64,000 nucleotides of DNA from Parazoarcus communis (GTDB lineage Bacteria; Pseudomonadota; Gammaproteobacteria; Burkholderiales; Rhodocyclaceae): contig NZ_CP022188.1 of NCBI RefSeq assembly GCF_003111665.1, forward strand, positions 744,001-808,000. The letters run 5' to 3'. Position 1 is the stretch's first letter. Every line of letters starts with the position of its first letter. The notes under the pieces are model-generated. The model made no database searches. It was not told the origin of the DNA and was given only the letters and a program-made list of their open reading frames with translations. Both the position numbers and the translations under genes were made by a program. Below are positions 391 through 23,823 of the stretch, piece after piece.

Positions 391-436
391 TGCCGACCCG
401 CTCAGCCCACCTTCACCATATCCGGGATACATCCAC

Positions 437-3135: not shown

Positions 3136-3505
3136 GTCGCGCACCGCCGCGGGACCTGCACTCGCAACGTCCGTCCGCGCGACCGGCCGATGCGTGTCCC
3201 TGCCGCACGCTGCGTACAACCCGCTCGATCACGGCCGCGACACATGTCGTCGCGGCGCCGGTTCGGCTCCCCGCACCAAGCCCATTCCCCTTGCTGCTTC
3301 AGGCACCGCGCCGCCCGCCGCACCGGCGCGCCATCGCGTCCGCAGATTCAGTCAGGTAACGCTCGATTAGTCGACGTTCATGAACAGTGTCTTTCCATCG
3401 CCCCGGATTATCCGTCGCGCCTTAATCGGTACGCTTGCCTCCAGTACGACGGAGCACCCGTTCCGCCGTGCCTTCGCAAGGTACTGACAAGGACAGGAGG
3501 ACATC
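3136..3505. other. intergenic region with no recognised feature
   Basis: About 370 bp lie between the GntR stop and the nitroreductase start. I see no convincing gene, terminator hairpin or promoter apart from the AGGAGG-like Shine-Dalgarno just before 3506. The first 200 bp are extremely G+C-rich and the last 150 bp are closer to average. Confidence 0.45.
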
Positions 3506-4135: not shown

Positions 4136-4177
4136 GGGGCGCCCCCACCCTGCCCCGCTTCGCTGGAGTCTTCCATC

Positions 4178-5128: not shown

Positions 5129-6037
5129 TCAGTCTGCATCCCAGTAAGGCGGGTCCTTGATGTACTCGGCGAGGAAATCGACAAAGGCACGGATCTTTGG
5201 CGACAGGTGCTTGCGCTGCGGATAGACGGCATAGATCGACACTTCCATCGTCCGGTAGCCTTGCAGCACCGCCCTGAGCCGCCCTGCCCGGATATCGGCG
5301 CCGACCACGAAGGTGGGCGTCAGGGTCACGCCGGCACCATTGAGCAAGGCCTCGCGCAAGGCCAGGCTGCTGTTCATCTTGATGCGGCTGGTGACGGTCA
5401 CCTGACGATGGCCGCCATCCGCGGCAAGAAAGTGCCACTCGTCCGGCGCATTCGTGTAACGGTAGGTGATGGCCGCATGTTGCGACAGATCCTCGAGCGA
5501 CAGGGGAACGCCATTGCGCGCGAAATATGCCGGCGCCCCGCACACCACATGCCGGCACGGGCCCAGTCGGCGCGCCACCAGCGATGAATCGGGCAGCTCT
5601 CCGATCCGGATCGCCAGATCGAAACCCTCATCCACGAGGTCGACCTTGCGGTCGTCCAGCACCATATCCACCGTCAGTTCCGGGTAGCGCGCCTGGAGCG
5701 CCGGCAGCAGGGGCGCAAGGTGCAGGATGCCGAAGGACATCGGGCTGCTCAGGCGCAACTCACCACGCGGCTCGCCCTGCATGCGCGAAACCTCTGCCTC
5801 GGCCTCCTCGATCTCCAGCAAACCCCGCTGGCTGCGCTCGAAGAACGCCCGCCCCACCTCGGTCAGACTCAGCCGCCTCGTCGTGCGGTTCAGCAGGCGC
5901 GCGCCCAGCCTGTCCTCAAGACGGGTCACATACTTGCTCACCACCGATTTCGAGAGTCCCAGCGTCTCGGCTGCGGCTGTGAAACTGCCGCGACTGACGA
6001 CCTGAACAAACACGGCCACATCACTGAGTGCGTCCAT
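5129..6037 (-). CDS. LysR-family transcriptional regulator
   Basis: This 302-residue LTTR starts at the ATG at 6037 (MDALSDVAVFVQVV). An in-frame TTG at 6055 is possible, but a G-rich stretch precedes the ATG. The N-terminal winged helix-turn-helix (residues 5-65) contains GSFTAAAETLGLSKSVVSKYVTRLE and LLNRTTRRLSLTEVG, as in the CrgA/AaeR-like group. The substrate-binding domain covers about residues 90-295. It is divergently transcribed from the exported cyclase-family gene at 6148, the usual arrangement for an LTTR and its target, so that gene is the likeliest regulon member (inference). Confidence 0.92.
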   Translation of the reverse strand: MDALSDVAVFVQVVSRGSFTAAAETLGLSKSVVSKYVTRLEDRLGARLLNRTTRRLSLTEVGRAFFERSQRGLLEIEEAEAEVSRMQGEPRGELRLSSPMSFGILHLAPLLPALQARYPELTVDMVLDDRKVDLVDEGFDLAIRIGELPDSSLVARRLGPCRHVVCGAPAYFARNGVPLSLEDLSQHAAITYRYTNAPDEWHFLAADGGHRQVTVTSRIKMNSSLALREALLNGAGVTLTPTFVVGADIRAGRLRAVLQGYRTMEVSIYAVYPQRKHLSPKIRAFVDFLAEYIKDPPYWDAD

Positions 6038-6067
6038 AGCGCCCCCATTACTCAAGCGTTGAGAACA

Positions 6068-6095
6068 ATCTTATTCCATCAGCCCAGATTATCAA
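6068..6095 (-). promoter_or_regulatory. candidate promoter for the LysR gene, in the divergent intergenic region
   Basis: On the minus strand TTGATA (6095-6090) and TAAGAT (6073-6068) are spaced 16 bp, about 30 bp upstream of the LysR ATG. The same 110-bp region carries two direct copies of CGTTGAGA (6057-6064 and 6114-6121) that could be regulator contact sites. This is tentative. Confidence 0.4.
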
Positions 6096-6147
6096 TTCCA
6101 TGAAGATCTCTATCGTTGAGACACCTTGAACACAACGGAGATCTGCG

Positions 6148-7140
6148 ATGAACACGCAAATGAAAACCACCCTGAGTGCGATGTTGCTCGGACTCGCGCT
6201 TGCAACGGGCTCACCCGCAACGCACGCGGCACAGGAGGTGGGCATCAGCCCGTGGGGCCCGCAGGACGAAATCGGCCGCCTCAACCTGATGACCGCAGAC
6301 TCGCAGGCCGCAGTGCTGGCGCGACTGGCAGGCGGCAAGAGCTACGACCTGTCCGTCGAGTACCACATCGGCATGCCCAGCTGGCAGGCCGCCGGTGACC
6401 CGCACTACCGCATCTGGATGACCCACACGCCCCATGGCAACGTTGTCGCCGACCCGCTCGGTCTGGGCCAGGCCATGAACGAACATGTGAGCTACACCGG
6501 CGCGGCCATCTCGATGTACACGCACATGGGCACCCACATCGACGCCCTTGGTCATTTCGGCCTCGACGGCCGGATCTGGAATGGTTTCGACGCGAGGACT
6601 CACCTCGGCGACCGCGGATGGACGGTAGCGGGCGCAGAGAAGATCCCGCCCATCATCGCCCGCGGCGTCCTGATCGACGTGGCGGCGTCCAAGAGCGTGG
6701 ACATGCTGCCGGACGGCTATCGCGTCACGCGTGAGGACCTGCGCGCTGCGCTCTCACATCAGCAAACCAGGCTCGAACCCGGCGACGTCGTACTGATCCG
6801 CACGGGCCGGATGCGTCATTACGACGATGCCGAGGCCTACATGGCGAATCCTCCGGGGATGGGAATGGAGGCTGCACGCTTCCTGGTGGAAGAAAGCGGT
6901 GCCATGGTGGTCGGTGCCGACAACCTGAGCTTCGAGAGCTTCCCCTCGGAAATCGAGGGCAACTACGTGCCACTTCACACCTATCTGCTGGCCCAGACCG
7001 GCACGCCGATCATAGAATTGGCCTATCTGGAGGAACTGGCACGCGACCGCGTGTATGAGTTTGCCTTCATCGGCGGCTCACTCAAGCTTCGGGGCTCGGA
7101 CGCCGCACCTCTGCGGCCGATTGCCATTCCGCTGCGCTGA
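6148..7140 (+). CDS. exported cyclase-family (kynurenine formamidase-like) metal-dependent hydrolase
   Basis: This 330-residue protein has an N-terminal signal peptide (charged start, hydrophobic core LSAMLLGLALATG, cleavage near THA-AQ), so it is probably periplasmic. The mature part belongs to the putative cyclase family (PF04199). The metal-binding motif THMGTHIDALGHF (H-x-G-T-H-x-D-x-x-x-H) lies at about residues 128-140, and a GADNLSFE segment lies near residue 250. Family members hydrolyse amides or lactones (N-formylkynurenine, isatin and similar), and the substrate here is unknown. The signal peptide is less common than cytosolic forms. It is divergent from the LysR gene. A hairpin follows 10 bp after the stop. 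Confidence 0.85.
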   Translation: MNTQMKTTLSAMLLGLALATGSPATHAAQEVGISPWGPQDEIGRLNLMTADSQAAVLARLAGGKSYDLSVEYHIGMPSWQAAGDPHYRIWMTHTPHGNVVADPLGLGQAMNEHVSYTGAAISMYTHMGTHIDALGHFGLDGRIWNGFDARTHLGDRGWTVAGAEKIPPIIARGVLIDVAASKSVDMLPDGYRVTREDLRAALSHQQTRLEPGDVVLIRTGRMRHYDDAEAYMANPPGMGMEAARFLVEESGAMVVGADNLSFESFPSEIEGNYVPLHTYLLAQTGTPIIELAYLEELARDRVYEFAFIGGSLKLRGSDAAPLRPIAIPLR

Positions 7141-7150
7141 GGCACCGGAC

Positions 7151-7170
7151 ACGCGCCCGCAAGGGCGCGT
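7151..7170 (+). terminator. hairpin after the cyclase-family gene
   Basis: A perfect 8-bp stem (ACGCGCCC / GGGCGCGT) with a GCAA tetraloop starts 10 bp after the stop and is followed by AATTTC. The T-tract is weak, so termination may be partial. Confidence 0.5.
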
Positions 7171-7227
7171 AATTTCGCCACGGGCAGCCCACCTGCACGA
7201 GAGGCGTGACGAACAGGAGGGAACATC

Positions 7228-7908
7228 ATGAAGGTCTGCGTTGTAGGCGCATCCGGGAAACTCGGCCAGTACATGGTCCAGCATGCACTCGACCGCGGCC
7301 ATGAGGTCGTCGGCGTCTGCCGTGAGCGCAGCGTCGGCAAGCTCGACCGGTTCAAGGGTCGCATCACCATCGTCCCGGGCGCCACAAACGACCGCGAAGT
7401 CATCAGGAAAGCGGTCGCAGGCTGTGATGGCGTGCTAACCGTACTGGTCCCCTGGGGTGTCCAGCAGTATTCATCGGGCACGGCCCAGGCCGTGATGGAC
7501 TATTCATCCACGGATGCACGGCTCGTGTTCTCCTGCGGCTGGCATATCAGCCGCGACGGCAAGGACCGCTACTCGTGGAAACTGAAAGCCCTGGTGGCCA
7601 TTGCCGGCCCCATCGCACGCCTCTTCCGCCTGGTGGAGCTGGACGATCAGGTTGAGGCGTGCCGACGAATCTTCGCCAGCACGACGAAGTGGACCGTCGT
7701 CCGCGCAAGCGACCTTGAGGAAGGGGACAGCCAGGGCCTGCCGGTCTGGAGCCGGCACGTTGGCGACGCCATCCTCGAAAGCAATCTCACACGCCGCGTG
7801 GACTTCGCCCTGTTCATGGTGGCAGCGCTCGAGAACGACGAACTCATTCATGAAGCACCCGCAATCGTGGGCTGTCAGACGCCGTCGGCGCTCGCCGGCA
7901 AAGCTTGA
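7228..7908 (+). CDS. NAD(P)-binding NmrA/epimerase-like protein
   Basis: This 226-residue Rossmann-fold protein has the dinucleotide-binding motif VVGASGKLGQYMVQHAL (G-x-x-G-x-x-G) at residues 6-21 and a short C-terminal domain. This matches the atypical-SDR / NAD(P)H-binding family. The typical SDR Tyr-x-x-x-Lys is replaced by SWKLKALVAIAG, so catalytic activity is uncertain and a redox-sensing role is possible. A good GGAGG Shine-Dalgarno precedes the ATG (7216-7220). It lies downstream of the cyclase gene across a hairpin. Function is not assigned. Confidence 0.7.
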   Translation: MKVCVVGASGKLGQYMVQHALDRGHEVVGVCRERSVGKLDRFKGRITIVPGATNDREVIRKAVAGCDGVLTVLVPWGVQQYSSGTAQAVMDYSSTDARLVFSCGWHISRDGKDRYSWKLKALVAIAGPIARLFRLVELDDQVEACRRIFASTTKWTVVRASDLEEGDSQGLPVWSRHVGDAILESNLTRRVDFALFMVAALENDELIHEAPAIVGCQTPSALAGKA

Positions 7909-8041
7909 TGCGGCCAATCGGATCAGTCGACGCGTAGCAGGTGCGCTACAGGCGTCCAGGCCTCGAGGGCCGGCAGGTTCATATCGGCGTCGGGCATCGT
8001 GTGCCAGTGCCAAACAAACCGGCTAACCAGAATGCCCGCAG

Positions 8042-9001
8042 CTATGCGGCAGGCTTGAAACAGACCCGGTTTCGGCCCGAACTCTTGGCCTGGTAGAGAG
8101 CTGCGTCGGCCGCTGCCACCAGGATTTCAGCTCCACTGCCGTCCTGAGGGAAGGCGCTTGCCACCCCAACGCTGACCGTGACCACCGCTGCGGTCGCCGA
8201 ACCAGCATGGGGAATCGCGAGCGCCTCGACCGCCGCGCACACTTCCTCGGCTTTCACGCGTCCCGCCTCCAGATCGCACTCGGGAAGCAGGCAGACGAAC
8301 TCCTCACCGCCATAGCGGGCGGCGAGATCGTGTGGTCGGCCGAGTTGCAGCCTGACGGCGGTCGCGACCCTCCTGAGACAGGCATCGCCTTCCTGATGGC
8401 CGTAGCGATCGTTGTATTGCTTGAAATGGTCGATGTCGATCATGAACAGCGTGAGCGGCAGCCCGCCGCGCCGGCAACTGCGCCATTCTGTCTGAATAGC
8501 CTCATCGAAGCGGCGGCGGTTGGCGATGCCTGTCAGACCATCGATGAAGACAATCGCCTTGAGCAGGTCAGACTGCGCCTTCATGGTGAGATGGGTCTTG
8601 ACCCTGGCGCGCACCACGGCCGGGTTGACCGGCTTGCTGATGAAATCGACCCCGCCGGCCTCCAGGGCCCGTGTTTCGTCCAGCGCGTCCGTCTGAGCCG
8701 TGACGAAGATGATCGGGATGTCGCGCGTGGCAGGATTGGCCTTGAGGCGGCGGCAGACTTCCAGTCCATCGAGGCCCGGCATCTCCACGTCGAGCAGGAT
8801 CAGGTCGGGCAGCTGGTCTCTGTCGCACAAGGCCAGCGCCTGTTCACCGCTCGTGGCCATGAAGACCTCATGGTCCTCCGCAAAAATCCGGTAAAGCACC
8901 TGGATGTTGGCAGCCAGGTCATCGACCAGCAGCAAACGGGGCCGATCTCGTGGATCGGCCAGCAGCCCTTCCCCGGCGTGTGCGTGTGCGGAACCTGTCA
9001 T
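8042..9001 (-). CDS. response regulator with GGDEF diguanylate cyclase domain
   Basis: This 319-residue protein starts at the ATG at 9001, whose first bases overlap the stop of the preceding small gene (ATGA). An N-terminal receiver domain (about residues 20-135; LLLVDDLAAN, phospho-acceptor Asp in LILLDVEMPG near residue 70, VTAQTD, SKPVNP) is followed by a GGDEF domain (about 155-310). The active-site GGEEF is intact, and an RPHD I-site lies five residues upstream, as needed for product inhibition. It should therefore make c-di-GMP when phosphorylated, presumably by the hybrid kinase encoded two genes upstream. No EAL domain is present. The in-frame extension to 9130 lacks domain character and overlaps the small gene, so I rejected it. 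Confidence 0.92.
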   Translation of the reverse strand: MTGSAHAHAGEGLLADPRDRPRLLLVDDLAANIQVLYRIFAEDHEVFMATSGEQALALCDRDQLPDLILLDVEMPGLDGLEVCRRLKANPATRDIPIIFVTAQTDALDETRALEAGGVDFISKPVNPAVVRARVKTHLTMKAQSDLLKAIVFIDGLTGIANRRRFDEAIQTEWRSCRRGGLPLTLFMIDIDHFKQYNDRYGHQEGDACLRRVATAVRLQLGRPHDLAARYGGEEFVCLLPECDLEAGRVKAEEVCAAVEALAIPHAGSATAAVVTVSVGVASAFPQDGSGAEILVAAADAALYQAKSSGRNRVCFKPAA

Positions 9002-9252
9002 GAGCGCTCTCTCACTACCGTGATTCGGAACGTATCGGCGTGATCCGGCGAGCCGCGCCCGGCTGCCTCGGTCACGCCCTCTATCAATACAAGGGGACTC
9101 TGCGCCAAGGGTCCGGTTCCACAGAGACATGCCCTCAGCTTTTCACCCCCGGTTGCGCTGAAGACGTCGAGGTCGGCGCAGAAAAGCGGGCCGAAGGCCG
9201 GGACGCAGTCCGCCGGACCCTCCACGACCAGCGGACCTGGCCGCCAGCTCAT
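8998..9252 (-). CDS. 84-residue protein of unknown function, coupled between hybrid kinase and GGDEF regulator
   Basis: This short minus-strand ORF is usually overlooked because larger frames cover the region. Three sequence facts support it: its ATG overlaps the kinase stop as ATGA (9249-9252), a perfect AGGAGG Shine-Dalgarno lies eight bases before the ATG inside the kinase gene, and its own TGA overlaps the ATG of the response regulator (8998-9001). Translational coupling on both sides argues for a real gene. The product has no signal peptide or membrane helix. It has four Cys (in ADCVP, LFCAD and ACLCG) and a beta-strand-like tail (DTFRITVVRE). I recognise no family. A connector or accessory protein of the phosphorelay is a reasonable guess only. 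Confidence 0.65.
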   Translation of the reverse strand: MSWRPGPLVVEGPADCVPAFGPLFCADLDVFSATGGEKLRACLCGTGPLAQSPLVLIEGVTEAAGRGSPDHADTFRITVVRERS

Positions 9253-12200
9253 ATCGCACCCTCCTGGCGCAAGCTCGCCACCAGGGTCCGCGCAGCGGCA
9301 AAATCGAGTCGCTGCACGGCGTGATCCAGTTCGGCGAAGCGTTCGCCGTGCCCGCCTGCTGCCTGTTTCAACGCCGCGAAAACATCGAGCGCACGCAGGT
9401 TGTGCTCTGCCAGCAGGGGCACCAGTTCGTCGAACAATTCGGCCACGCGACCCGGCTCGGCCGGTTGAGGCTCAACGGAAGCCTGCGGCGGATCGAACGC
9501 CTCGGCAAGGGTCAGCAGGGACGCGGCGCTCGTGTCGATCAGCGTGCGCAACCGGGTGAGGTTTTCGGCATGGTGGGCTGCGTCCTCGCCCGACCTGACG
9601 GCAGACTCGGTCTCCGCAGCCAGGTTCGCCAGCGGCTGGGCGCCCAGCATCGCCGCCTGCCCCTTGAGCGTATGCAGTTCGCGTGTCGCCGTCGTGAAGT
9701 CGCCCTGGCTCCAGGCCTGATCGATGCGGTCGGCACTATCGCCCTGATCGGCAACAAAATCGCGCGCCAGTTGCGCAAAAAACCTGCGATCGCCATTCAG
9801 TCTTGCCAGCGCAGGCCCCAGGTCGAAGCCTTCGGGGCTTTCCGGAAGCGGCCCGGCTGGCTGAACCACCGGGGCCACAACCTCTGCCCGGCCACATTGC
9901 CGCAACAGGGTGGCTACCAGTTCCCGCGAATCGATGGGTTTGCCGACGTGGTCGTTCATGCCGGCGGCAAGACAGGCGTCGCGGTCGGCCGCCAGCACGT
10001 TGGCTGTCATGGCGATGATCGGCACCTTGAAACCACCCGCGCGCAGGCGGCGCGTGGCCTCATAGCCGTCCATTCCCGGCATCTGGATATCCATCAGCAC
10101 GGCATCGAAGAGCGCCTCGGCCCGTTGCGCCAGTGTCAGCGCGGCCTGGCCGTCGTCCGCCACCGTCACCCAGGCGCCGGCATGAACCAGCAGTTCCCGC
10201 GCGACCTGCTGGTTCAAGGGATTGTCTTCGACCAGCAAGAGCCGCAGCCCGGCAAGCGGCCGGCCAAGGAGGTGTGCGCCGCCCTGGTGTTCCGTCGTGA
10301 CCGATTCGCCGCCGGTGGCGACGGCAATGGCGTCGAACAGCATGGATGGCGTGACCGGCTTGACCAGAAAACCGTCGAGGGGGTTGTCGTCGACGCCGGC
10401 AATGCGCTCCTCGAGCATTTCGCGGCCCTTGGCGGTCACCATCAGCAGGACAGGCTCGCGCGGGCCGTGCTCCATTGCGCGGATGCGTTCGGCCGTATCC
10501 CAGCCGTTCAGACCGGGCATGAGCCAGTCCAGGCAGATGATGTCGAACGGCCGCCCGGCGGCGATGGCCGCGTCTGCGCGCTCGACAGCCTCCTCGCCGC
10601 TGGCGGCGGTTTCGGTAGACCAGCCAAAGGACTGCGTCGCATTGGCCAGGACCTGGCGGGCCGTGGCGTTGTCATCCACGATCAGCACATGCGGGGGCTT
10701 GGGCAGGCGCCCGGGGTCGAGCTCGCGCTGGACGAGTTGCTCGGTCGCCTCGTCGCGAAGGAGGTCGAGGGTGAAATGGAAACGGCTTCCGGCCCCGGGC
10801 GTGCTTTCCACCTGCAGTTCGCCGCCCATCAGGCCCACCAGGCGCTGGCTGATGGCCAGGCCGAGGCCGGTGCCGCCGTAGTGGCGCGTGGTCGAGCCTT
10901 CCGCCTGAGTAAAACCCTCGAATACCGCCTGCAGACGCTCAGCCGCAATGCCAATGCCGGTGTCGCGGACCGCAAACTCGATGCGGGCAGACTCGGCCCG
11001 CGTTTCGACCGGACGCAGGCTGACAATGACCTCGCCCCGCTCGGTGAACTTCACCGCGTTGCCGGCCAGGTTGAGCAGCACCTGCTGCAGGCGCAGCGGG
11101 TCGCCACGCAGCGCGCGAGGCAACTCGGGAGCGATATCGAACAGTACCTCCACCGGTTTGTCCTGCAGCGCAGCGGAGAGCATCACCGAGAGGTTGCGCA
11201 GCAGTTCGTCGAGGCGGAAAGGGGTGTCGTCCAGCTGCATCCTGCCCGCCTCGACCTTGGAGAAATCGAGGATGTCGTTGAGGATGGCGAGCAGGGAGCG
11301 CGCCGCGCCTTCAGCCTTGCGCACGTAGTCGAGCTGATGCCCGTCCAGCCTGGTGTGCTGCAGGAGTTCCAGCAGGCCAAGCACCGCGTTCATTGGCGTA
11401 CGGATCTCGTGGCTCATGTTGGCAACGAAGGCACTCTTGGCCCGGCTGGCGGCCTCGGATTCGACGCTGCGTTTCTCGAGGGCAGCGTTGGTGGCCTCCA
11501 GTTGCAGCTGTGCCTGCTTGAGCTCCGTGATGTCGTTGACGAGCACGAAGAATCCGCGCACCTGGTCCTCGACCACGTCGGGAATGTAGTGGGCCCAGGT
11601 GTAGCCGGTGCTGCCATCAGCCTTGGTCAGGGTGCGTTCGAAGTGCTGGCACTCGCCAGCCAGCGCCGCCCGTATGAAGGGCTCGTTCTTCTCGAACAGG
11701 GCTTTGTGCATGAGCTCCTGAATGTGGATGCCCCGCATCTGCTCCGGCGTTTTGCCGAACCATTCGCGATAGGCGATGTTGGCAAAACCGCAGCGCAGGT
11801 CGGCATCCCAGTAGCCGACCATGCCAGGAATGATGTCGATCAGCGAACGCATGAAATGCTCGCTGCGCGCCAAGGCAGCGGCGGCCTGCTCCCTTTCCGC
11901 CTCGACGCGGCGGCGGCGGCGCTGGTCGATTGCCAACCCGGGCACGCTCAAGCCCGCAAGCAGGACGAACAAGCCGCCCCCCATCCAGGCCTGGCCCCGC
12001 CAGGCACCATAGAGCACGCCCATGTCGCGCCCGACCGCGACCACCAGAGGTTGGTCCATCGGCACATCCTCCGGCAGGATGGTGTGCAGCGCCATCATGC
12101 GCAGCTCGCCTGTCGCCGCGACCACGCCCTCGAGCACCTCTGCCGGATGCGCGCTCGCCATGTGGCGCGAGAAGAAGGAACCGGGCTGAGCCAGATTCTT

Positions 12201-12866
12201 GCCGGACTGACCGGGCCGGTCCGGCTCCATGATGACCTGCAGACCGTCGCCGTGGGCGATGGCCGCCCACATGTCCGTCCCGTAAAGGACAGCGCTCAGC
12301 TGTGAGCGAATCTCGTCCGGATCGAGCGTGGCAGAGACGATGCCCGCAAACTTTCCGTCAGCGGTCATGATCACGCGCACCACGTTCATCGCCCAGACCC
12401 CGAGCGCAGTCTCGAAGGGCGGCGAGACGTAGAGCACGTCGGGATTGGCGTCGGCCTGCGCCCTTTGAAAGTAGGGCCGGTGAGCGAAGTTCATGCCGAG
12501 CAGCGCCGGCCGGTTCGCCGCGACGACATTGCCCTCGGGATCGAAGACCAGCAAGGTGCGCACACTGCGCATGGCATCGGCGAAGGCCCGCAACCGGTGG
12601 CTGGCGCGGGCCATGCCGTCCCTCTCCTGCTGCCAGCCGGGCAGATCATCGCGGATACCGATCAAGGCGCGGTCGACCACGAGCAAGGCGCGACCGAGGT
12701 TCTTGTCGATGACGCGCGCCTGGGTGGCGAGCCGGTCGCGCTCGAGGACGCCGATGGCCGTGTGGTCACGGTAGAGCGTCAGCCCGATGACCGCAGCAAC
12801 GATGAACAGCCCGCTCAGAAGCAGAAGCCACTCGGCCAGGAAGCGGTTACGGGTAATCAGGGGCAT
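9249..12866 (-). CDS. membrane hybrid histidine kinase: Cache-PAS-HisKA-HATPase-REC-REC-HPt
   Basis: This is a 1205-residue complex sensor kinase. Transmembrane helices at about residues 12-33 and 293-313 bracket a periplasmic double-Cache-like sensor. A PAS domain (about 335-450) comes next, then the HisKA domain with phospho-His 486 in [18 protein letters not shown]. The HATPase domain follows (GTGLGLAIS near 663). Two receiver domains come next (LIVDDNA near 725 with [19 protein letters not shown] near 875 with [11 protein letters not shown]). A C-terminal HPt domain has the acceptor His in [10 protein letters not shown] near residue 1063. The complete His-Asp-His chain could pass phosphate to the GGDEF response regulator downstream. 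The signal is unknown, and Cache domains often bind small carboxylates or amino acids. The stop overlaps the next start as ATGA. Confidence 0.93.
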
Positions 12867-12959
12867 TGCACTTTTCTCTGCGTGGGCAACTCATGCCAGG
12901 AGCCTGCATTCCAGCACAAAAACTGCCGCGACAAGGAAGGGACTCCAATTATGCCTTCG

Positions 12960-12988
12960 GTTATAGATGGCGTTAGTGAACTGCACAA
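12960..12988 (-). promoter_or_regulatory. candidate sigma70 promoter for the hybrid kinase operon
   Basis: On the minus strand TTGTGC (12988-12983) and TATAAC (12965-12960) are separated by 17 bp, about 95 bp upstream of the kinase ATG, in a locally A+T-richer stretch. Confidence 0.4.
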
Positions 12989-13368
12989 CAGTCGGCCCCC
13001 TGTTGGAAGGCTGAAGTCACCGCGTGACCTGGCCAGCCAGTCTGACAAACAGTGCCGTGACGAATTGCTGACGTTCGCAAGAACCGTCAAATGCTCGCGC
13101 TGCTCCCTGCTTGGCAGGCCGCGATAATCACCTGACGGACGACAGCCCCCCTTGATCCCGGCGCTCGAAGGCAAACTTCGGTGAAGGCGAAGCATCGCCC
13201 GAGTGCTCAGAGTTCGCTCCTGTCCCTTTATCCAAAGATGCTGGACGAATTGCTAAAAATCGTCTTTATTCCAATGAAGCTGCCAGCCGACGGCTTCCGT
13301 TAGCAACTGTTGGAAATCGAGCCTGGAGATACGGCAAGGCCGTCGCGGTGGCGTCCAGCAGGCCGCTC

Positions 13369-14282: not shown

Positions 14283-14425
14283 AGAGTCCGGCAATTTCCG
14301 CTTCAGACTGGACCTTCTCGTTCAACAATCAGAAAACCGGACTGTTCCTTGCCAATCAAGTCGAAAACGTGGCAATAGAGTTGAAAACGCCCCGGCATCT
14401 CGTCGGGGCGTTTTCGTTTGCCTGA
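14279..14425 (+). CDS. possible 48-residue ORF running into the left repeat arm
   Basis: An ATG overlaps the preceding gene's stop as ATGA and opens 48 codons that end within the repeat hairpin. From about residue 21 the peptide (GLFLANQVENVAIELK...) matches the same frame in the right repeat arm (LFLANKVENVAIKLK...). Differences between the copies here fall mainly at first codon positions, which argues against selection on the peptide. It may be a chance fusion of coding DNA to a repeat, and I list it because of the start/stop overlap. Confidence 0.25.
   Translation: MKSPAISASDWTFSFNNQKTGLFLANQVENVAIELKTPRHLVGAFSFA
14383..14420 (+). terminator. strong hairpin inside the left repeat arm
   Basis: A perfect 12-bp stem (GAAAACGCCCCG 14383-14394 with CGGGGCGTTTTC 14404-14415) and a 9-nt loop, flanked by A- and T-rich tails on both sides, look like a bidirectional intrinsic terminator. 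It follows the membrane-protein gene by 100 bp. The matching hairpin in the right arm lies just after glmS. Confidence 0.6.
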
Positions 14426-14581
14426 ATTTACAGGTGTCTGCCCCCCGGTCTGCGCATGGATCGCTTTTCGGGGGGCTTCGGCTGTGGGGGACATCGGTGA
14501 CTGGCTGGTGATCGGCCAAAGCGGTCGCTGGCCTAGCGCGCTGAATCGGGCTGCAATCCGCCGGTTTCCTGCCGCTACGCA

Positions 14582-14612: not shown

Positions 14613-14719
14613 GGCCAGAACTTCAATCACAGGGCTTGTCATTCCTGTACGGGTAGATTTATTCTCAATGTCCTCGGCATCTTTCGATGTCAAATACCAG
14701 ACCTATACGGGACAGCGGG

Positions 14720-16990
14720 ATGATCGAGACCATTTCCCTATCGAAGACGGCGACCTACGGTGATCAACCCGAAATTCTGGGGCCGCTCAGACGCGTAAAT
14801 TTCATCTTTGGCACTAACGGCACAGGCAAGACCACGATCAGCAGGGTGATTGCCGACGACACAGGCTATGCCGCTTGCGGAGTTGCCTGGAAGAACGGTC
14901 AGCCTCTACAGGCTTTGGTCTATAACCGGGATTTTGTTGAGCATAATTTCAGCCGGTCAGCGGAGCTCAAAGGGGTATTCACCCTCGGCGAAAAGCAGGT
15001 CAAGGCCCAAGAAGAGATGAAGGAGAAGAAGCGGGAAGCTGACCGCTACAAAGACAAGATCGCTGCCGACAAAATGGTTCTTGAAGGAGATGATGGAAAG
15101 TCCGGAAAACGAGGCGATTTGGCGGCGCTTGAAGACAGATTTCTCGATCAGTGCTGGGAAGCCTACGGCAAGCATAAGGAAAAGCTTTCCCACGCGTTTG
15201 ATGGGGTCCGAAACAGCAAGAAAGAGTTTAAGGCTAGGGCGCTACGTGAAGCTGCCTCCAACACATCCCAAACCGTGCCGTTAGATGAGCTGCATAAACG
15301 GGCTGAAACGATTTTCGGGCAGGCCCTCAGCGAGGCGAGTGTTGTTTCTGATGTCAGCTTATCCATTTTGCTTGGCTACGAAAGCGATCCGATCATTAAA
15401 AAGCGAGTGATCGGCAAGGAAGATGTCGATATCGCCGAGATGATCAAGAAACTGGGTAATAGCGATTGGGTGAGGGAGGGCAGAACCTTCTACGACGTAA
15501 ATGATCGGGTGTGCCCGTTTTGTCAGCAGGCGACTGACGAGGCGTTTGAAAAGAGCCTCAACGAGTATTTCAACGAGTCGTTCGAGCGGGACAGCAAGGC
15601 GATAGGGGCGTTGCTCGACAACTACAAAACAGAAGCAACCCGCGTTCTGCAGGAGTTGGGGCAGATTTCGGCTTCGCCCTCCAAGTTCCTGGACGTTGCC
15701 AAGTTCCAGAGCGAACGAGATTTTCTGGAAGCGAAGCTAAGTCTGAATACCCAGCAACTAGTCAGAAAGAGCAAAGAGCCCAGCCAGATTTTTGAGCTTG
15801 AATCCGTTGGCAACATCGCCGCCTCGATTGCGGGACTGATAGCGGAGGCCAACAAAAAGGTGGCCGACCACAACGCCTTGGTGAAGAACATCGGAAAGGA
15901 AAAGGCAAAACTCGTTTCCGATGTCTGGAAGTACATGATTAATAGGGATTTGAGCGCGGCATATGCCCATTACAAGGACACGAAGGGTGGGCTGGAAGGG
16001 GCCATAAAGTCGCTTGAAGAAAGGGTTCAAAATTTCGGCCAAGAGGTTCGCGCACGCGAAGTGGCCATTCGGGAGCTGGAAAAACAAACCACAAGCGTGA
16101 AGCCGACGATTGACGCGATCAATTCCCTGCTTGCTTCATTCGGGTTTCATGGCTTCTCGCTTGCGATAGCGGATAACGGAACCTCATACCAGCTTGTTAG
16201 GGAAGACAAGTCGGATGCAAAGGAGACGCTGAGCGAGGGGGAAAAGACCTTCGTGACCTTCCTGTATTTTTACCATCTGCTCAAAGGCAGTGACACGGAA
16301 AGCGGGATCACCACGGATCGGGTTGTGGTGTTCGATGATCCAGTATCAAGTCTGGATAGCGAGATTCTGTTCATCGTCGGAAGCCTCATTAAAAATGTCT
16401 TCGATGAAGCGCGCAGCGGAACGAGCCTGATTAAGCAAGTCTTCGTTTTGACGCACAACGTGTATTTCCATAAGGAAGTCTCGTTCAACAACTCCCGAAC
16501 GGACAAGGCTCTCAAAGACGAAACATTTTGGGTTGTGCGCAAGCCGGCTAAGCAATCGAAACTGGAGAAGCACGATGGGAATCCGATCCAGACTTCTTAT
16601 GAGCTGCTTTGGTCAGAGGTCAAAAACCCGAATCCTTCGCTGCTGACCATTCAGAACATCATGCGCAGAATCCTTGAAAACTACTTCAAGTTTTTTGGTG
16701 GGATTGAGCCGAGAGACATATGCGCAAGACTGCCGGGCAAGGAGCAATCGATCTGCAACAGCCTTCTGTCATGGGTGAATGACGGTTCGCACTATGCCCA
16801 AGACGATATCTACGTGAGCATGGATCATGGAGCGGTCCAGACCTATTTGAAGGTCTTCCACCTGATCTTTAAGTTGTCTGAGCACGAGGCTCACTACAAG
16901 ATGATGATGGGGAATGATTACGTGGAACTTGAGGATTTCGCTCATGTTGGAACTGGGGCCACTGCGGCGGAAGAAGCGTCGGCAGCATAA
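14720..16990 (+). CDS. RloC-like AAA_13-family protein: ABC ATPase with zinc hook and putative anticodon nuclease domain
   Basis: This 756-residue protein starts at the ATG at 14720 (MIETISLSK...). An in-frame ATG at 14687 adds 11 residues without support. Visible parts are Walker A GTNGTGKTT (31-39), coiled-coil segments around a CPFC zinc-hook motif (265-268), ABC signature LSEGEK (504-509), Walker B VVVFDDPVSSLD (from 535) and an H-loop LTHN. The C-terminal region has R649-x-x-x-E653 and H691 in DGSHY. This order is that of RloC, a wobble-nucleotide-excising tRNase related to PrrC, whose ATPase controls a C-terminal Arg-Glu-His nuclease. It would act in the cytoplasm on tRNA after phage or DNA-damage signals (family knowledge). 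No restriction-modification genes lie nearby, unlike many prrC loci. G+C is visibly lower than in neighbouring core genes, which indicates transfer. AAA_13 membership is secure; the nuclease activity is inferred. Confidence 0.75.
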   Translation: MIETISLSKTATYGDQPEILGPLRRVNFIFGTNGTGKTTISRVIADDTGYAACGVAWKNGQPLQALVYNRDFVEHNFSRSAELKGVFTLGEKQVKAQEEMKEKKREADRYKDKIAADKMVLEGDDGKSGKRGDLAALEDRFLDQCWEAYGKHKEKLSHAFDGVRNSKKEFKARALREAASNTSQTVPLDELHKRAETIFGQALSEASVVSDVSLSILLGYESDPIIKKRVIGKEDVDIAEMIKKLGNSDWVREGRTFYDVNDRVCPFCQQATDEAFEKSLNEYFNESFERDSKAIGALLDNYKTEATRVLQELGQISASPSKFLDVAKFQSERDFLEAKLSLNTQQLVRKSKEPSQIFELESVGNIAASIAGLIAEANKKVADHNALVKNIGKEKAKLVSDVWKYMINRDLSAAYAHYKDTKGGLEGAIKSLEERVQNFGQEVRAREVAIRELEKQTTSVKPTIDAINSLLASFGFHGFSLAIADNGTSYQLVREDKSDAKETLSEGEKTFVTFLYFYHLLKGSDTESGITTDRVVVFDDPVSSLDSEILFIVGSLIKNVFDEARSGTSLIKQVFVLTHNVYFHKEVSFNNSRTDKALKDETFWVVRKPAKQSKLEKHDGNPIQTSYELLWSEVKNPNPSLLTIQNIMRRILENYFKFFGGIEPRDICARLPGKEQSICNSLLSWVNDGSHYAQDDIYVSMDHGAVQTYLKVFHLIFKLSEHEAHYKMMMGNDYVELEDFAHVGTGATAAEEASAA

Positions 16991-17174
16991 GGCCGGCCTG
17001 TTTCAATTTTTTTGACTTGCCGTAGGCGACGTAGGTTAGTAAACCACACTATGAGGAAGACGAAGACTGCTACTAGCCTTTTGCCCTCTCAGAGCCCCGC
17101 CGCGCCGATTCCTCGCCCCACTTCGTCTGATCGTTTGGGAAGTGATCAATGGCGGCTATCTGGCGAGGTTGATC

Positions 17175-18515
17175 CTAAAAACTCGCTGCAACTGTTACGA
17201 CAAATTCGCTTGCAGCATCCTCAGACACTTGCCACATGCCGATGCCGAGTCCTTTAATCTTTGAAACAAGCACGGGGTGTGGATGGTGGCTACGGCCCGT
17301 TGCAGCACAGGAAATAGTCATCGCATGCGAGGCCTCTTCGAGTACCTCACTGTGAACGCTTGAGTTGCTTCCATGGTGAGGCAGGAGAAAAGTTCCGGTC
17401 TCCTTTAATAACTGGCTATAGCGCCGTAGCCACGCCGAGCGGGTGTTGCGACTCTTGAGATCCGCGTCGCCAGTACTGATCCAACCTGCTCGTTCTGGAT
17501 AGAAAAGTGGTTCCGATACGAGTGCAGAGGGGATATAGTGCCACCTCACGTGCAGAGGCCAGTGCGCGTGGTAGTACCCTGACCCCAACGTCTGTATTTC
17601 CCACACATCGCCCCGACCGGGGAAGGGGCCGCTGTAGAGCGATAAGGAAGGCTTGTTATTGTTCGAGGAAAGGAGGGCGTAGCACCTCTTGAGATTTTCG
17701 CGCTTTGCCACATCAGTTAGCGCGGCGAACAACCGTCTCGCGAATGCAGGAGTGGCAATCGCTTCGGTATCCGGCACACTCAACGTCGTTCGGACCGCCT
17801 TCAGAAACGCTTTTACTCGGTCCTCGGGAAACGGATGAACATACGGCACAAAGAGCCAAGTCAACTGTGAAGCAGAGCCTATAGAGAGATCTACCTCGAA
17901 CGCACTTGAGGATGGCAGCACGCTTGCCGATATCTTTGTCGTGGGAAGATGCACCGGACTACTTGCGGAAGAGTGAACTAAACACTTGAGGCGGCGAGGC
18001 TCTTGCCGCTGATTGGGGGCAAGAGGCTCACCCACCTGGAGTGGACTCGGCGAATCTGGGCCGAAGGGAGGAGCAGAGTCATCTCCCGGCGTATCCCGAC
18101 TCAGGAATAGCACACGTTTGACGCCTCTATCGGCGAACCAGGTAGCCGGGTTGCGCAAGAAGTTTTTCAGACCGCCGGGAATGCCGCCGCGATTGAGTTC
18201 CTCGCACACTATTGCCGTCATGTTGAGCGGATCTAGGCAAGGTAGAACGACCGTGTCGACATCAACTTTACTAAGCAAGAGATCTATTCCATTCACATGA
18301 TCAGCGTCGAGATGAGAGATGAACAGTATGTCTACCGCTCTGTCTTCCAGCGCATCGATGCCTTGCCGAAGGTGTTCTCTATTCACCGATCCACAGTCAA
18401 ACGCTATCTTGAAGGCGTAGGGTGGTCTTGGGGCATCGCGTACAACGATCTCCGAAGTCATAAGGCCGCCTTGACCCACGGCCATTTGACGAGTCGTCAC
18501 CCGTGCTTCTAGCAT
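17175..18515 (-). CDS. metallo-beta-lactamase-fold hydrolase (ComEC-type MBL domain), unknown role
   Basis: This 446-residue protein begins with a VGQGG segment and a CGS turn. The metal-binding motif SHLDADHVNG follows (H68, D70, D72, H73). A second histidine pair lies in LPHHGSNSSVH near residue 378. The fold is that of soluble MBL domains related to the ComEC/Rec2 C-terminus, but there are no competence-channel helices, so it is a stand-alone hydrolase, perhaps a nuclease or phosphodiesterase. A long insert (about residues 150-330) separates the two metal motifs. The start has a good AGAGGA Shine-Dalgarno. It is convergent with the RloC-like gene, 184 bp apart, inside the same repeat-bounded island, which suggests shared cargo. 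Function is not known. Confidence 0.75.
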   Translation of the reverse strand: MLEARVTTRQMAVGQGGLMTSEIVVRDAPRPPYAFKIAFDCGSVNREHLRQGIDALEDRAVDILFISHLDADHVNGIDLLLSKVDVDTVVLPCLDPLNMTAIVCEELNRGGIPGGLKNFLRNPATWFADRGVKRVLFLSRDTPGDDSAPPFGPDSPSPLQVGEPLAPNQRQEPRRLKCLVHSSASSPVHLPTTKISASVLPSSSAFEVDLSIGSASQLTWLFVPYVHPFPEDRVKAFLKAVRTTLSVPDTEAIATPAFARRLFAALTDVAKRENLKRCYALLSSNNNKPSLSLYSGPFPGRGDVWEIQTLGSGYYHAHWPLHVRWHYIPSALVSEPLFYPERAGWISTGDADLKSRNTRSAWLRRYSQLLKETGTFLLPHHGSNSSVHSEVLEEASHAMTISCAATGRSHHPHPVLVSKIKGLGIGMWQVSEDAASEFVVTVAASF

Positions 18516-18794: not shown

Positions 18795-20231
18795 ATGAAG
18801 CGTTTCGTTCAAAGCGAAAACCGAAATCAAGCCGTGTTGCTCCCTGAACATCTGGATGACTACGTCACAGAAGACAACCCGGTGCGCGTCGTTGATGCTT
18901 TCGTTGAGCAGCTCGATTTGCGCAAGCTCGGATTCGAGGCCGTTGATCGCGCATCGAATGGTCGTCCTGCCTACCATCCGGCAGTCCTTCTCAAGATCTA
19001 TATCTACGGCTACCTCAATCGGATCCAGTCCAGCCGACGGTTAGAACGCGAGGCAGGCCGTAACCTTGAATTGATCTGGCTGACCAGCCGACTGGCGCCG
19101 GACTTCAAGACCATCGCGAACTTTCGCAAGGAGAACGGCCCGGCGATCCGCAACGTCTGCCGTCAGTTCATCACGATTTGCCGAAAGCTCGAGCTGTTTT
19201 CGGAAGCCATGGTGGCAATCGACGGCAGCAAGTTCAAGGCGGTCAACAACCGGGACCGAAACTTCACCGCTAACAAAATTGAGCGGCGTCGCGAACAGAT
19301 CGAGGCAAGCATCGAGCGCTACTTGGCCGCGATCGAAACGGCCGACCGCCAGGAACCGGACATTGCCGAGGCGAAGACGACTCGCCTGCGGGATAAAATC
19401 GCCGTGCTCAAAGAGCAGATGGCGAAGCTCGGGGAAATCGAGACCCGCTTGAAGGAAACACCGGACAAGCAGATATCACTGACTGATCCCGACGCCCGGT
19501 CCATGGCAACCAGTGGCCGCGGTACCGGCACGGTAGGCTGCAACGTCCAGACTGCCGTCGACACCAAGCACCACCTGATCGTCGCGCACGAGGTAACCAA
19601 TGTAGGCCACGACCGCACCCAACTTGCCAACATGGCGATCCAGGCCAAGAAGGCGATGAGGGTGTCAGAGTTGAGCGTCGTTGCGGATCGTGGTTACTTC
19701 CGGGGCGAGGAGATTCTTGCCTGTGAGAAGGCCGACATTACCGCGTTCGTTCCCAAGCCAATGACTTCCAACTCAAAGGCCGAGGGTCGATTCGGCAAAG
19801 ACGACTTCATCTACGATCGCGATACGGATGAGTATCGCTGTCCTGCCGGAGAGCGCCTGATTTGGCGTTACCAGACTACCGAGAGTGAACTAACCGTCCA
19901 TCGCTACTGGAGTTCCCACTGCAAGCAGTGCGCTTTGAAATCTCAGTGCACGACCGGCAGCGAGCGGCGGGTCACACGCTGGCAGCATGAAGAAGTTCTC
20001 GAGTCGATGCAGAGGCGACTGGATCGGACGCCAGACGCGATGGCTATACGTCGAAAAACGGTCGAGCACCCATTTGGTACGCTCAAAGCCTGGATGGGCG
20101 CTACGCACTTTCTCACCCGAACGCTGGATCGAGTGCGTACCGAGATGAGCTTGCATGTGCTCGCATATAACCTGAAGCGAGTGATGAAAATCCTCGGAAA
20201 TGAAGCAGTAATGAAAGCAATTCGGGCCTGA
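18795..20231 (+). CDS. IS1182-family transposase
   Basis: This 478-residue DDE transposase appears intact. The N-terminal DUF772-type domain (VLLPEHLDDYVTEDNPVR, GRPAYHPAVLLKIYIYGYLN, SRRLEREAGRNLE) is characteristic of IS1182. Catalytic Asp residues are in VAIDGSKFKAVN and VVADRGYFRGEE, and the Glu is in EHPFGTLKAWMGATHF. A central coiled-coil-like insert (about residues 155-215) is normal for the group. The downstream part of the element was split by the IS5-family insertion 25 bp after the stop, which leaves the coding sequence untouched, so it may still be active in cis. Confidence 0.93.
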   Translation: MKRFVQSENRNQAVLLPEHLDDYVTEDNPVRVVDAFVEQLDLRKLGFEAVDRASNGRPAYHPAVLLKIYIYGYLNRIQSSRRLEREAGRNLELIWLTSRLAPDFKTIANFRKENGPAIRNVCRQFITICRKLELFSEAMVAIDGSKFKAVNNRDRNFTANKIERRREQIEASIERYLAAIETADRQEPDIAEAKTTRLRDKIAVLKEQMAKLGEIETRLKETPDKQISLTDPDARSMATSGRGTGTVGCNVQTAVDTKHHLIVAHEVTNVGHDRTQLANMAIQAKKAMRVSELSVVADRGYFRGEEILACEKADITAFVPKPMTSNSKAEGRFGKDDFIYDRDTDEYRCPAGERLIWRYQTTESELTVHRYWSSHCKQCALKSQCTTGSERRVTRWQHEEVLESMQRRLDRTPDAMAIRRKTVEHPFGTLKAWMGATHFLTRTLDRVRTEMSLHVLAYNLKRVMKILGNEAVMKAIRA

Positions 20232-20256: not shown

Positions 20257-21580
20257 CAGGGTGATGCAAAAGTCAGTGAACGATCCATCAAGCTGCTTGT
20301 CATAGAACCATCTCCAAACTCCTTGTACTGCAACGATGCGCGGCCAACTCGACCCCCAGTCCTCGATGTTCCATTATTTCTCGCCGGAATCGCGTGTGCC
20401 TGCCGATCATCCGCTGCGACGGGTGAAGCGTTTGGCGGATCGAGCCCTTGGTTTGATTTGCGCAGAATTGGATGCGCTTTACTCGTCGGTCGGCCGTCCG
20501 TCGATTCCGCCAGAGCGTCTGCTCAAGGCGCAATTGCTGATCGCGCTGTATTCGGTTCGCTCCGACCGGCAGTTCTGCGAACAACTCGACTACAACATCC
20601 TGTTCCGCTGGTTCCTCGACATGGATCTCGAGAGTCCGACGCTGGACCAATCGAATTTCAGCCGTCTGCGTGAGCGCCTGGTCGCCACTGACGTAGCCCG
20701 ACGCTTCTTCGACGAGGTCGTCAATCTGGCCCGGAAGCAGAATCTGCTGTCCTCGGACCATTTCACGGTAGACGGCACGCTGATCGACGCCTGGGCCTCG
20801 TTCAAGAGCTTCAAACGCAAGGACGGGACCCCGCCCAATGACGGTGATGATGGCACGGGGATGGTCGACTTCAAGGGCGAGAAGCGCTCGAACGCCACGC
20901 ATCAAAGCACAACGGACCCCGAGTCCCGCCTCATGAGAAAGGGCAACGGCCAGCCGGCCAAACTCAGCTACGGCGGACATGTGCTCATGGAAAATCGCAA
21001 CGGGTTGTGCGTCGATATCCTCATCACCGAATCGATTCAGGCCGAGCACCGTGCGGCCCGGCAGTTGCTCACGCGAGCGCGACGCAGGCACATTCACCCC
21101 GAGACACTGGGTGCGGACAAGGGCTATCACGTGAAGGCGTTCGTCGAGCATCTGCGCGAGCATCAGATCCGTCCGCACATTGCACGCATCAAGGGTCGGA
21201 AGACACCTGGACTGGATGGGCGAACCACCCGGACCGAGGGCTACCGGGTCAGCCAGCGAAAGCGAAAGCGCGTTGAGGAAATATTCGGCTGGTTGAAAAC
21301 GGTCGGCGGGTTGAGAAAAACCCGCTTCATCGGCCAGGCGAAGACCCAGATGGCGGCCTTTATTTCCGGCGCTGCATACAACCTGCTCCGAATCGCGAAA
21401 TTGAGCGTTACGGAGGTAAAGGCATGAGTGCAGGCGCACAAAATAGCCTTCGCGGCCGCCGTTGCGGCCACGAAGGCTATTCGAAAGTGGCGAGAAAGCT
21501 ATTTCGGAAAACGATGTCACGATGAAATTCGACCTGAACCTCAATGCTGACGCGGAATCGCCGGTTTTTGCATCATCCTG
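20257..21580 (+). mobile_element. complete IS5-family insertion sequence nested in the IS1182 element
   Basis: The element is 1324 bp. Terminal inverted repeats CAGGGTGATGCAAAA (20257-20271) and CAGGATGATGCAAAA (reverse complement of 21566-21580) match at 14 of 15 positions, and TTAA is duplicated outside. It carries one intact transposase gene in the same direction as the host transposase. Intact ends and gene indicate a recent insertion. Confidence 0.85.
20336..21427 (+). CDS. IS5-family transposase
   Basis: This 363-residue transposase has an N-terminal DUF772 domain (MFHYFSPESRVPADHPLRR, GRPSIPPERLLKAQLLIALY, SDRQFCEQLDYNILFRWFL) and a DDE domain. Catalytic Asp residues are in FTVDGTLIDAW and LGADKGYH, and the Glu is in RVEEIFGWLKTVGGLRKTRF. 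It has normal length with no frameshift. It fills most of the nested 1.3-kb element. I see no second reading frame that would suggest programmed frameshifting. Confidence 0.92.
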   Translation: MRGQLDPQSSMFHYFSPESRVPADHPLRRVKRLADRALGLICAELDALYSSVGRPSIPPERLLKAQLLIALYSVRSDRQFCEQLDYNILFRWFLDMDLESPTLDQSNFSRLRERLVATDVARRFFDEVVNLARKQNLLSSDHFTVDGTLIDAWASFKSFKRKDGTPPNDGDDGTGMVDFKGEKRSNATHQSTTDPESRLMRKGNGQPAKLSYGGHVLMENRNGLCVDILITESIQAEHRAARQLLTRARRRHIHPETLGADKGYHVKAFVEHLREHQIRPHIARIKGRKTPGLDGRTTRTEGYRVSQRKRKRVEEIFGWLKTVGGLRKTRFIGQAKTQMAAFISGAAYNLLRIAKLSVTEVKA

Positions 21581-21700: not shown

Positions 21701-21973
21701 AATGGAGAAGCTGTCGTTCGTCGTCACCTCGCAGGTGAGCGACAGGTAACCGGCGCATTGCCGCCTGATTGCGCGCACCGGACCAACGGCGGGTCAGGCC
21801 GATCACCAGCCAGTCACCGATGTCGCCCAAAGCCGAAGGACGCCCCCGAACGGCGATCCATGCGCAGATCGGGGGCAGGTAACTGTAAATCCAGGTAAAC
21901 GAAAACGCCCCGACGAGATGCCGGGGCGCTTTCAACTTTATTGCCACGTTTTCGACTTTATTGGCAAGGAACA
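21701..21973 (-). repeat. right copy of the ~270-bp island repeat
   Basis: This is the reverse complement of the left copy at 14343-14613. It ends 23 bp from the glmS stop. It includes the hairpin at 21901-21933 and a frame on the minus strand that stays open for 96 codons (21684-21974) with the peptide blocks CAWIA-RG, GDIGDWLVIG and RRW--A-N-A--RRLP, which are also found in the left copy. Confidence 0.85.
21901..21933 (-). terminator. hairpin at the end of glmS, within the right repeat arm
   Basis: GAAAACGCCCCG (21901-21912) pairs with CGGGGCGCTTTC (21922-21933) with one mismatch and a 9-nt loop. On the minus strand it is followed by GTTTAC. It lies 64 bp after the glmS stop and probably ends that operon. 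Confidence 0.5.
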
Positions 21974-21996: not shown

Positions 21997-23823
21997 TCAC
22001 TCCACCGTGACGCTCTTCGCCAGGTTCCGTGGCTTATCTACGTCCGTGCCCTTCACCAGCGCAGCGTGATAGGACAGCAACTGCAGTGCGATCACGTGCA
22101 GCACCGGCGACAGCATGCCGTAGTGCTCCGGCATGTGCAGGATGTGCACGCCTTCGGACTCGGGGATCTCGCTGCCGGCATCGGCGAACACATAGAGTTC
22201 TCCGCCTCGGGCGCGGACTTCCTGCAGGTTGGACTTGAGCTTTTCGAGCAGTTCGTCGGCCGGGGCAACTGCGATGACCGGCATGTCCTTGTCCACCAGC
22301 GCGAGCGGGCCGTGCTTGAGTTCGCCGGCGGCATAGGCTTCGGCGTGGATGTAGGAGATTTCCTTGAGCTTGAGCGCACCTTCCATCGCAATCGGCCAAT
22401 GGCGGCCGCGACCGAGGAAGAGTGCGTGCTCCTTGCTGGCGAAGCGCTGCGCCCAGGCTTCGATCTGCGGTTCAAGCTCAAGCACTTTCTGGATGGCGAC
22501 CGGCAGGTGACGCAAGGCGCTGAGGTAGTCGGCCTCGTCGGTCTCGGAGAGACGACCATTGATCTTGGCCAGCGACAGGGTGAGCAGGGCCAGCGCGGCA
22601 AGCTGGGTGGTGAAGGCCTTGGTCGACGCAACACCGATTTCAGGGCCTGCGCGGGTGATGAAGCGCAGGGCGGCTTCGCGCACGATGGCCGATTCGGGCA
22701 CGTTGCACACCGCGAGGGTGCGGGTCATGCCCAGCGCACTGGCATGCTTGAGCGCAGCCAGGGTATCGGCGGTTTCGCCTGACTGGGAAATTACCACCAC
22801 CAGGGTATCGGTTTCGGGCACTGACTTGCGGTAGCGGTATTCGCTGGCGATCTCGACCGTGCACGGGATGCCTGCGACCGACTCCAGCCAGTAGCGCGCG
22901 ACCAGACCGGCGTGGTAGCTGGTACCGCAGGCGAGTACGAGTACGCGACGCACACCGTCGAAAACCTCAGGGGCGCGCGCGCCGAAATGCAGCGGCGAGA
23001 TCGAGCCGCCACCGGCAATCATCTCCAGCGTATTGCCCAGTGCCTGCGGCTGCTCGAAGATTTCCTTCTGCATGTAATGGCGGAACTGACCCAGCTCGAC
23101 CGCATCGGCCGACAGACTGGAGATATGTACCTCGCGCTCGACCGGTGAGCCGTCGGGCAGCATGACGCGGTAGCTGTCGCGACGCAGTTCGGCCAGATCG
23201 CCGTCTTCGAGATACACCACCTTGCGCGTGACCTGCAGCAGCGCAGCGGTATCGGATGCGGCATACATGCCGTCCTCGCCAATACCGAGCAGCAGTGGCG
23301 AACCACGGCGCGCGACGATGGCGCGGAAGGGGTCGGCCTCGGACAGCACGCCGATGGCGTAGGCTCCGATCAGTTCGTTGGTTGCCAGACGCACCGCATC
23401 GAAGAGATCGGGCGTAGTCGCGAGCTTGCTGTGAATGAGGTGGGCGATGGCTTCGGTGTCGGTCTCGGACTCGAACACATAGCCACGCGCCTGCAGGCTG
23501 AGCTTGATCGACTCGAAGTTCTCGATGATGCCGTTATGCACCACTGCCAGCCCCGCCGAGATGTGCGGATGGGCGTTGCGCTCTGAGGGCACGCCGTGGG
23601 TTGCCCAGCGTGTGTGGGCAATGCCGATGTTGGCCGACAGTCCGGCCTGATCCGCGAGCGCCGCAAGCTCTGCAACGCGACCAGCCGAGCGCAGGCGGGT
23701 CAGCTCGCCGGACAACACCGCCAGCCCGGCGGAATCATAGCCACGATATTCGAGCTTGCGCAGGCCCTCGAGGAGCACGGGCACGACGTTGTTGGTGGCG
23801 ATTGCTGTGACGATACCGCACAT
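21997..23823 (-). CDS. glmS: glutamine--fructose-6-phosphate aminotransferase
   Basis: This 608-residue enzyme converts fructose-6-phosphate and glutamine to glucosamine-6-phosphate, the first committed step to UDP-GlcNAc for peptidoglycan and LPS. The N-terminal glutaminase domain starts MCGIVTA, with Cys2 as the processed nucleophile, and contains [17 protein letters not shown]. Two SIS sugar-isomerase domains follow ([22 protein letters not shown] and [18 protein letters not shown]), and the C-terminus is the usual [11 protein letters not shown]. It lies 48 bp downstream of glmU on the same strand, the standard glmUS pair. The right repeat arm lies immediately beyond its stop. Confidence 0.97.

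Follow-up and report, generated by a model that had tools for sequence, protein, structure and literature searches.

A predicted RloC-type anticodon nuclease encoded in a mobile-element-like island beside glmS in Parazoarcus communis

RloC proteins, described from Geobacillus kaustophilus and Acinetobacter baylyi, consist of an ABC ATPase split by a coiled coil with a CxxC zinc hook, followed by a C-terminal nuclease motif defined as R-x3-E-x36-52-H, in which the histidine is often preceded by serine; their reported length is 658–897 aa (PMC2610378). In the Geobacillus enzyme, the triad residues are required for anticodon cleavage, and hook mutations raise the activity and zinc lowers it (PMC2610378). 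It has been reported that A. baylyi RloC is activated by an inducer of DNA breaks even without a restriction–modification (R-M) system and cuts tRNA-Glu and tRNA-Gln; according to the account given there, the loss of tRNA was only partial and the authors saw no clear host benefit (PMC3874168). PrrC, the related anticodon nuclease, is shorter (341–416 aa), has no hook insert and occurs in linkage with a type I R-M enzyme (PMC2610378), and the nucleases of both RloC and PrrC have been viewed as divergent HEPN domains (PMC3710099). The present analysis concerns a 64,000-nucleotide stretch of Parazoarcus communis DNA (contig NZ_CP022188.1, positions 744,001–808,000; hereafter, the window) and a gene at window positions 14720..16990 on the forward strand, which a preliminary description had called RloC-like. 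As judged by its sequence, the gene is a typical RloC orthologue, so that it belongs to an already known kind and does not represent a new system, and it is very probable that it was acquired with a mobile island and that its product works as published RloC does.

The open reading frame (ORF), taken from its first ATG, spans 14687–16990 (+) and would encode 767 aa. The start at 14720, which gives 756 aa, is favoured because M1 of this reading is invariant among relatives in a 60-row alignment and because this very protein is likewise 756 aa long in its database entry (P0003); residues are numbered accordingly throughout. The product joins a split Rad50/SbcC-like ABC ATPase to a C-terminal PrrC-like anticodon nuclease domain. 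Its parts follow one another in the order of the RloC plan that the preliminary description had outlined, each named motif lying where it had been placed: Walker A (GTNGTGKTT, residues 31–39, 14810..14836, +), the CPFC zinc hook (residues 265–268, 15512..15523, +), the ABC signature LSEGEK (residues 504–509, 16229..16246, +) and the Walker B/D-loop FDDPVSSLD (residues 538–546, 16331..16357, +), the last two recognised in sequence alignments. The putative HEPN-type nuclease domain, mostly helical, covers residues 598–738 (16511..16933, +) as delimited by alignment, model and PrrC profile match, and contains the presumed catalytic triad of R649 (16664..16666, +), E653 (16676..16678, +) and H691 (16790..16792, +), the last with a serine (S690) before it. 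Since this spacing, R649-x3-E653-x37-H691, agrees with the published definition R-x3-E-x36-52-H, the gene can be assigned to the RloC orthologues, and the length of 756 aa also lies within the reported range.

The window protein and the best 80 of 294 confirmed genome loci, at 44–81% identity, give an alignment of 81 rows, in which G31, G36 and K37 of Walker A occur in 80 rows, the last row being gapped, and C265 and C268 of the hook occur in 78 and 79, respectively, of the 79 rows with a residue there. Four rows end before the C-terminus (three early stops and one contig end); in the other 77, R649 is present in every row, E653 in 76 (one D) and H691 in 76 (one R). These three residues, on which the preliminary description had staked the nuclease assignment, are likewise found in 120/120 of the homologues listed, with the window's own protein counted. 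The HMM check proposed at that time gave a Pfam AAA_13 match at 3.1e-189 spanning residues 22–729 of the 767-aa reading. In PADLOC, the top match was PDC-S06 (2.5e-287), a candidate system label that appears as a list entry in the literature consulted, and the PrrC model matched at 4.8e-12. A protein search returned 3254 homologues at E ≤ 1e-3 among 7998 candidates scored, several of which are named wobble nucleotide-excising tRNase by one source (JGI). The identification as RloC is supported on all of these sequence criteria. In seven distant homologues from plasmids and phages (26–47% identity), the arginine is kept in 7/7, the glutamate in 6/7 (one D) and the histidine in 4/7; three phage-borne proteins (L193, L194 and L198) keep the arginine, have no histidine aligned to H691 and carry a longer loop before that position, and a fourth (L197) keeps the histidine. 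L193 is annotated as RloC despite the missing aligned histidine. The triad thus appears firm in this clade and not in every relative, unless the distant alignment is off at that point.

The nuclease part can be compared with PrrC through both the triad and the ABC motifs, which align with those of the window protein. The PADLOC PrrC model matched 10 of 274 genomes at 1e-30, and five of the ten proteins (356–389 aa), in all of which R301, E305 and H341 are invariant, were used for profile–profile comparison with hhalign. Window residues 501–721 matched these five proteins with an E-value of 8e-6 and a probability of 83.7, a score to which the ATPase part contributes, since the hhalign alignment, like that of the PADLOC PrrC model, spans ATPase sequence too; without hand adjustment, the alignment sets R649, E653 and H691 opposite R301, E305 and H341 of PrrC. 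PrrC differs in that it is described without the zinc-hook insert and tied to a type I R-M enzyme (PMC2610378), whereas the window protein has the hook. A classification of the window protein as PrrC itself was rejected, given its 756 aa, its hook and the absence of R-M genes among the four neighbouring ORFs scanned. Three of the five PrrC-type genes used, at L142, L145 and L149, are, by eye, flanked by HsdS-like and RhuM-like ORFs, as described for PrrC loci.

The window protein carries all parts of the published RloC mechanism and would presumably operate in the same manner, with the DNA-end trigger, zinc switch, tRNA cleavage and phage defence taken over from the published RloC work. The split ABC domain would form a Rad50-like ATPase head, and the coiled coils with the CPFC zinc hook would form an arm that holds the nuclease in check; DNA ends and ATP hydrolysis would then free the C-terminal nuclease, whose R649/E653/H691 triad would cut tRNA in the anticodon loop, probably excising the wobble nucleotide, so that translation would halt and phage infection would abort.

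The distribution of the gene is sporadic. Only 8 of 199 genomes of the family match the protein, its own included: one holds a close homologue (G149, 55% identity over residues 1–738), another a distant one (G020, 27% over residues 21–730), and five others give weaker or partial matches. Among the four other genomes of the same genus, there is one partial match (61.5 bits) and none in the remaining three. This patchiness fits sporadic horizontal acquisition. The low G+C content pointed out in the preliminary description was borne out, being 50–52% over window positions 15001–17000 against 62–69% over 1–13000 and 56–68% beyond 22000.

The gene lies in an island at C1:758343-765973, whose cargo is rloC, a metallo-β-lactamase (MBL) fold gene and two insertion sequence (IS) elements. 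Its boundaries are inverted repeats some 230 bp long, which share 85% identity across the matched part and are present in this genome in these two copies only. The left repeat (14343..14576, +) starts with TGTTCC and holds the CAATAAAGT-type site in two variant forms, followed by a terminator-like hairpin. The right repeat (21738..21973, −) also starts with TGTTCC and holds two CAATAAAGT sites, and its tip lies 23 bp past the stop codon of the host gene glmS (21997..23823, −; named by its sequence), the downstream side of which is the putative attachment site. The pattern of the CAATAAAGT-type site occurs five times in the window, where 0.13 occurrences would be expected, and four of the five fall at the island tips. 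Nine genomes were compared at glmS, of which seven, the present one included, have a TGTTCC tip 22–24 bp past the stop codon and two (G115 and G150) have none; five of the nine (G180, G139, G288, G037 and G034) were chosen for their match in the repeat search, so that the fair sample consists of the four other genomes of the same genus, two of which have the tip (G180 and, in diverged form, G067). The spacers at these tips differ among genomes, save that of G067, which resembles that of the window. A family-wide DNA search with the island repeat matched 37 of 297 genomes (own included), many of the matches covering only a piece of the repeat (e.g., 183–277), apparently a separate common intergenic repeat; the matches on the glmS side were read closely in part. 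In one genome (G033, locus L138), the island-tip sequence occurs at a place other than glmS; at a distance of a few kb there are one ORF that by eye is HsdS-like and one that is AAA ATPase-like.

The repeats and their position fit insertion of Tn7-like elements at glmS, the likeness lying in the TGT...ACA tips, the tandem CAATAAAGT-type sites and the distance of 23 bp between the tip and the glmS stop codon. From their resemblance to the sites of Tn7, the CAATAAAGT-type repeats may be TnsB sites, and the insertion distance of Tn7 from glmS is presumably comparable to the 23 bp seen here. The island differs from such elements in its two near-identical ends, in the lack of TniQ nearby and in the lack of a matching 5-bp duplication. 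It has been reported that Tn7-like elements attach at the glmS 3′ end and carry arrays of TnsB sites, and two like ends are no bar to a Tn7-like reading because Tn7 is functional in a synthetic form that has a right end on both sides (PMC11406308). Two results weigh against an intact element: a 5-bp target duplication was not found, the flanking 5-mers at the two tips being different, and no TniQ was found near the island, the genome's two TniQ matches lying more than 400 kb away (the TnsA, TnsB and TnsC families were not searched). An autonomous Tn7-like transposon was rejected on these two grounds. The transposases inside the island belong to the IS1182 family (18795..20231, +) and the IS5 family (20336..21427, +) and are regarded as passengers. 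Mobile context is a further point of likeness with described RloC: in Shewanella, Tn7-like CASTs are already on record as carriers of RloC (PMC12452197), and the rloC gene of Geobacillus is part of an IS4-family transposon (PMC2610378). The window gene differs in sitting at the glmS site. What is new here is the glmS-side island, together with a DUF2130 linkage seen in relatives.

A same-strand gene of a DUF2130 cluster was found near rloC in 13 of the 80 loci (L003, L010, L016, L017, L026, L031, L032, L034, L041, L044, L055, L059 and L074), upstream or downstream and within 150 bp in 12 of the 13; Pfam was run on three of them (L016, L017 and L003) and named DUF2130 in each case, and some of the records are metagenome bins. 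These loci come from Pseudomonadota, Acidobacteria and one Paceibacterota record. Since just 35 of the 369 genomes searched from this class have DUF2130, linkage at this frequency is not expected by chance, and it may also reflect the gathering of both genes in defence islands. Conversely, an RloC-like match lies within about 1.5 kb at 2 of the 30 DUF2130 loci listed, and no DUF2130 match at 1e-10 was obtained in the present genome; on both counts, an obligate partnership of DUF2130 with RloC was rejected. No paper treating RloC and DUF2130 together was found in the literature searched, so that within that scope the linkage is an unreported lead. The rloC at L003 (77% identical) is the sole one of the 80 with glmS close by, at about 3.5 kb, and is accompanied by DUF2130 and by a Fic/DOC gene (8910–10145) between rloC and glmS, where no island-type tip was seen on the glmS side; an association with Fic has been published for some RloC-like genes (PMC3710099). 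L043, which is closer to the window protein than L003 (81%), has neither DUF2130 nor glmS in its flanks of about 10 kb upstream and about 1 kb downstream. It is tentatively suggested, as a possibility that we consider rather unlikely, that RloC of the broad clade is partly an undescribed module with DUF2130, the window copy being a solo form in a non-autonomous, two-like-ended Tn7-like element moved in trans.

Less probable is that the gene is a decaying or silent copy, with an intact frame that is not expressed or whose product is not active. Invasion of the island by two IS elements and the missing target duplication would agree with decay, but the reading frame, the hook, the ATPase motifs and the triad are all intact, and we therefore give this explanation a small chance beside the reading of the gene as a functional rloC.

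Somewhat less likely still is that the protein is a defence ATPase of Rad50 type in which the C-terminal domain does not cut tRNA and instead targets DNA or works by way of a partner nuclease, after the manner of Lamassu or PtuAB. The ATPase part does match the LmuB (6.5e-14) and AriA (6e-8) models. The full-length structural model, built on 60 alignment rows (pLDDT 73.8, pTM 0.44), shows an ABC head, as expected; long helices are predicted at 91–122, 130–160 and 167–180 before the hook and at 274–318, 326–352 and 364–455 after it, the hook stretch 264–272 having a pLDDT below 50. The structures that the model matches best are the heads of Rad50 and SMC, which recur with a second aligner, and a Lamassu LmuACB chain (4.1e-4), and it resembles the PtuA and AriA structures weakly (E 0.018). 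The nuclease domain modelled alone, from an alignment of 65 of the 80 loci with the window protein, is mostly helical (141 aa, pLDDT 80.4, pTM 0.73) and did not match any PDB entry significantly, its HEPN matches being weak; no structure of RloC or PrrC turned up in the PDB copy by sequence or profile search. Against a DNA-acting or partner-dependent domain, however, the R-x3-E...SH motif is common to PrrC by profile alignment and conserved across 44–81% identity, and no gene accompanies rloC constantly, the largest cluster of neighbours occurring at 11/80 loci and DUF2130, over two clusters, at 13/80. A C-terminal anticodon nuclease remains the preferred reading of the domain.

Pfam and NCBIfam scans of the four neighbouring ORFs (MBL, IS1182, IS5 and a left ORF of 285 aa), to which the scan was confined, recognised no R-M gene, in agreement with the statement of the preliminary description that no hsd genes flank the locus. 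A search with HSDR_N, the sole R-M family searched genome-wide, gave one match above the family cut-off (9e-8), at C1:4864800, far from the island. The missing R-M neighbours were rejected as a special feature, as described RloC is mostly unlinked to R-M: an unlinked copy is ordinary, because the original survey placed just 8 of 72 RloC genes at R-M loci of type I or III (PMC2610378). In the present locus set, an R-M-type neighbour cluster lies within 6 kb at 25 of 80 loci, with Pfam run on cluster representatives only and more than 3 kb on both sides available at 52 of the 80.

The MBL gene (17175..18515, −), whose product is weakly similar to the ComEC C-terminal domain, is judged a passenger. 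That RloC and this gene form a two-gene system with the MBL protein as sensor or activator, a role the preliminary description had allowed for, is very improbable and the idea of a partner was rejected: the two adjoin in one island with a gap of 184 bp, but they are convergent, none of the 80 RloC loci has an MBL relative (flank lengths vary), and no RloC is annotated, in an incomplete gene table, within 6 kb of the MBL relatives on two plasmids examined. Of the 30 plasmid records that hold an MBL relative, 24 are from Rhizobium, and one further relative occurs in genome G112.

The locus contributes an intact and clean example of RloC from a clade on which no biochemical data were encountered in this analysis, and it supports the view that RloC does not depend on linked restriction genes and moves as cargo of mobile elements. 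The 141-aa domain, for which no solved relative turned up, would be useful for deciding whether RloC/PrrC nucleases are HEPN proteins, and the DUF2130 linkage provides a lead on a possible partner of RloC.
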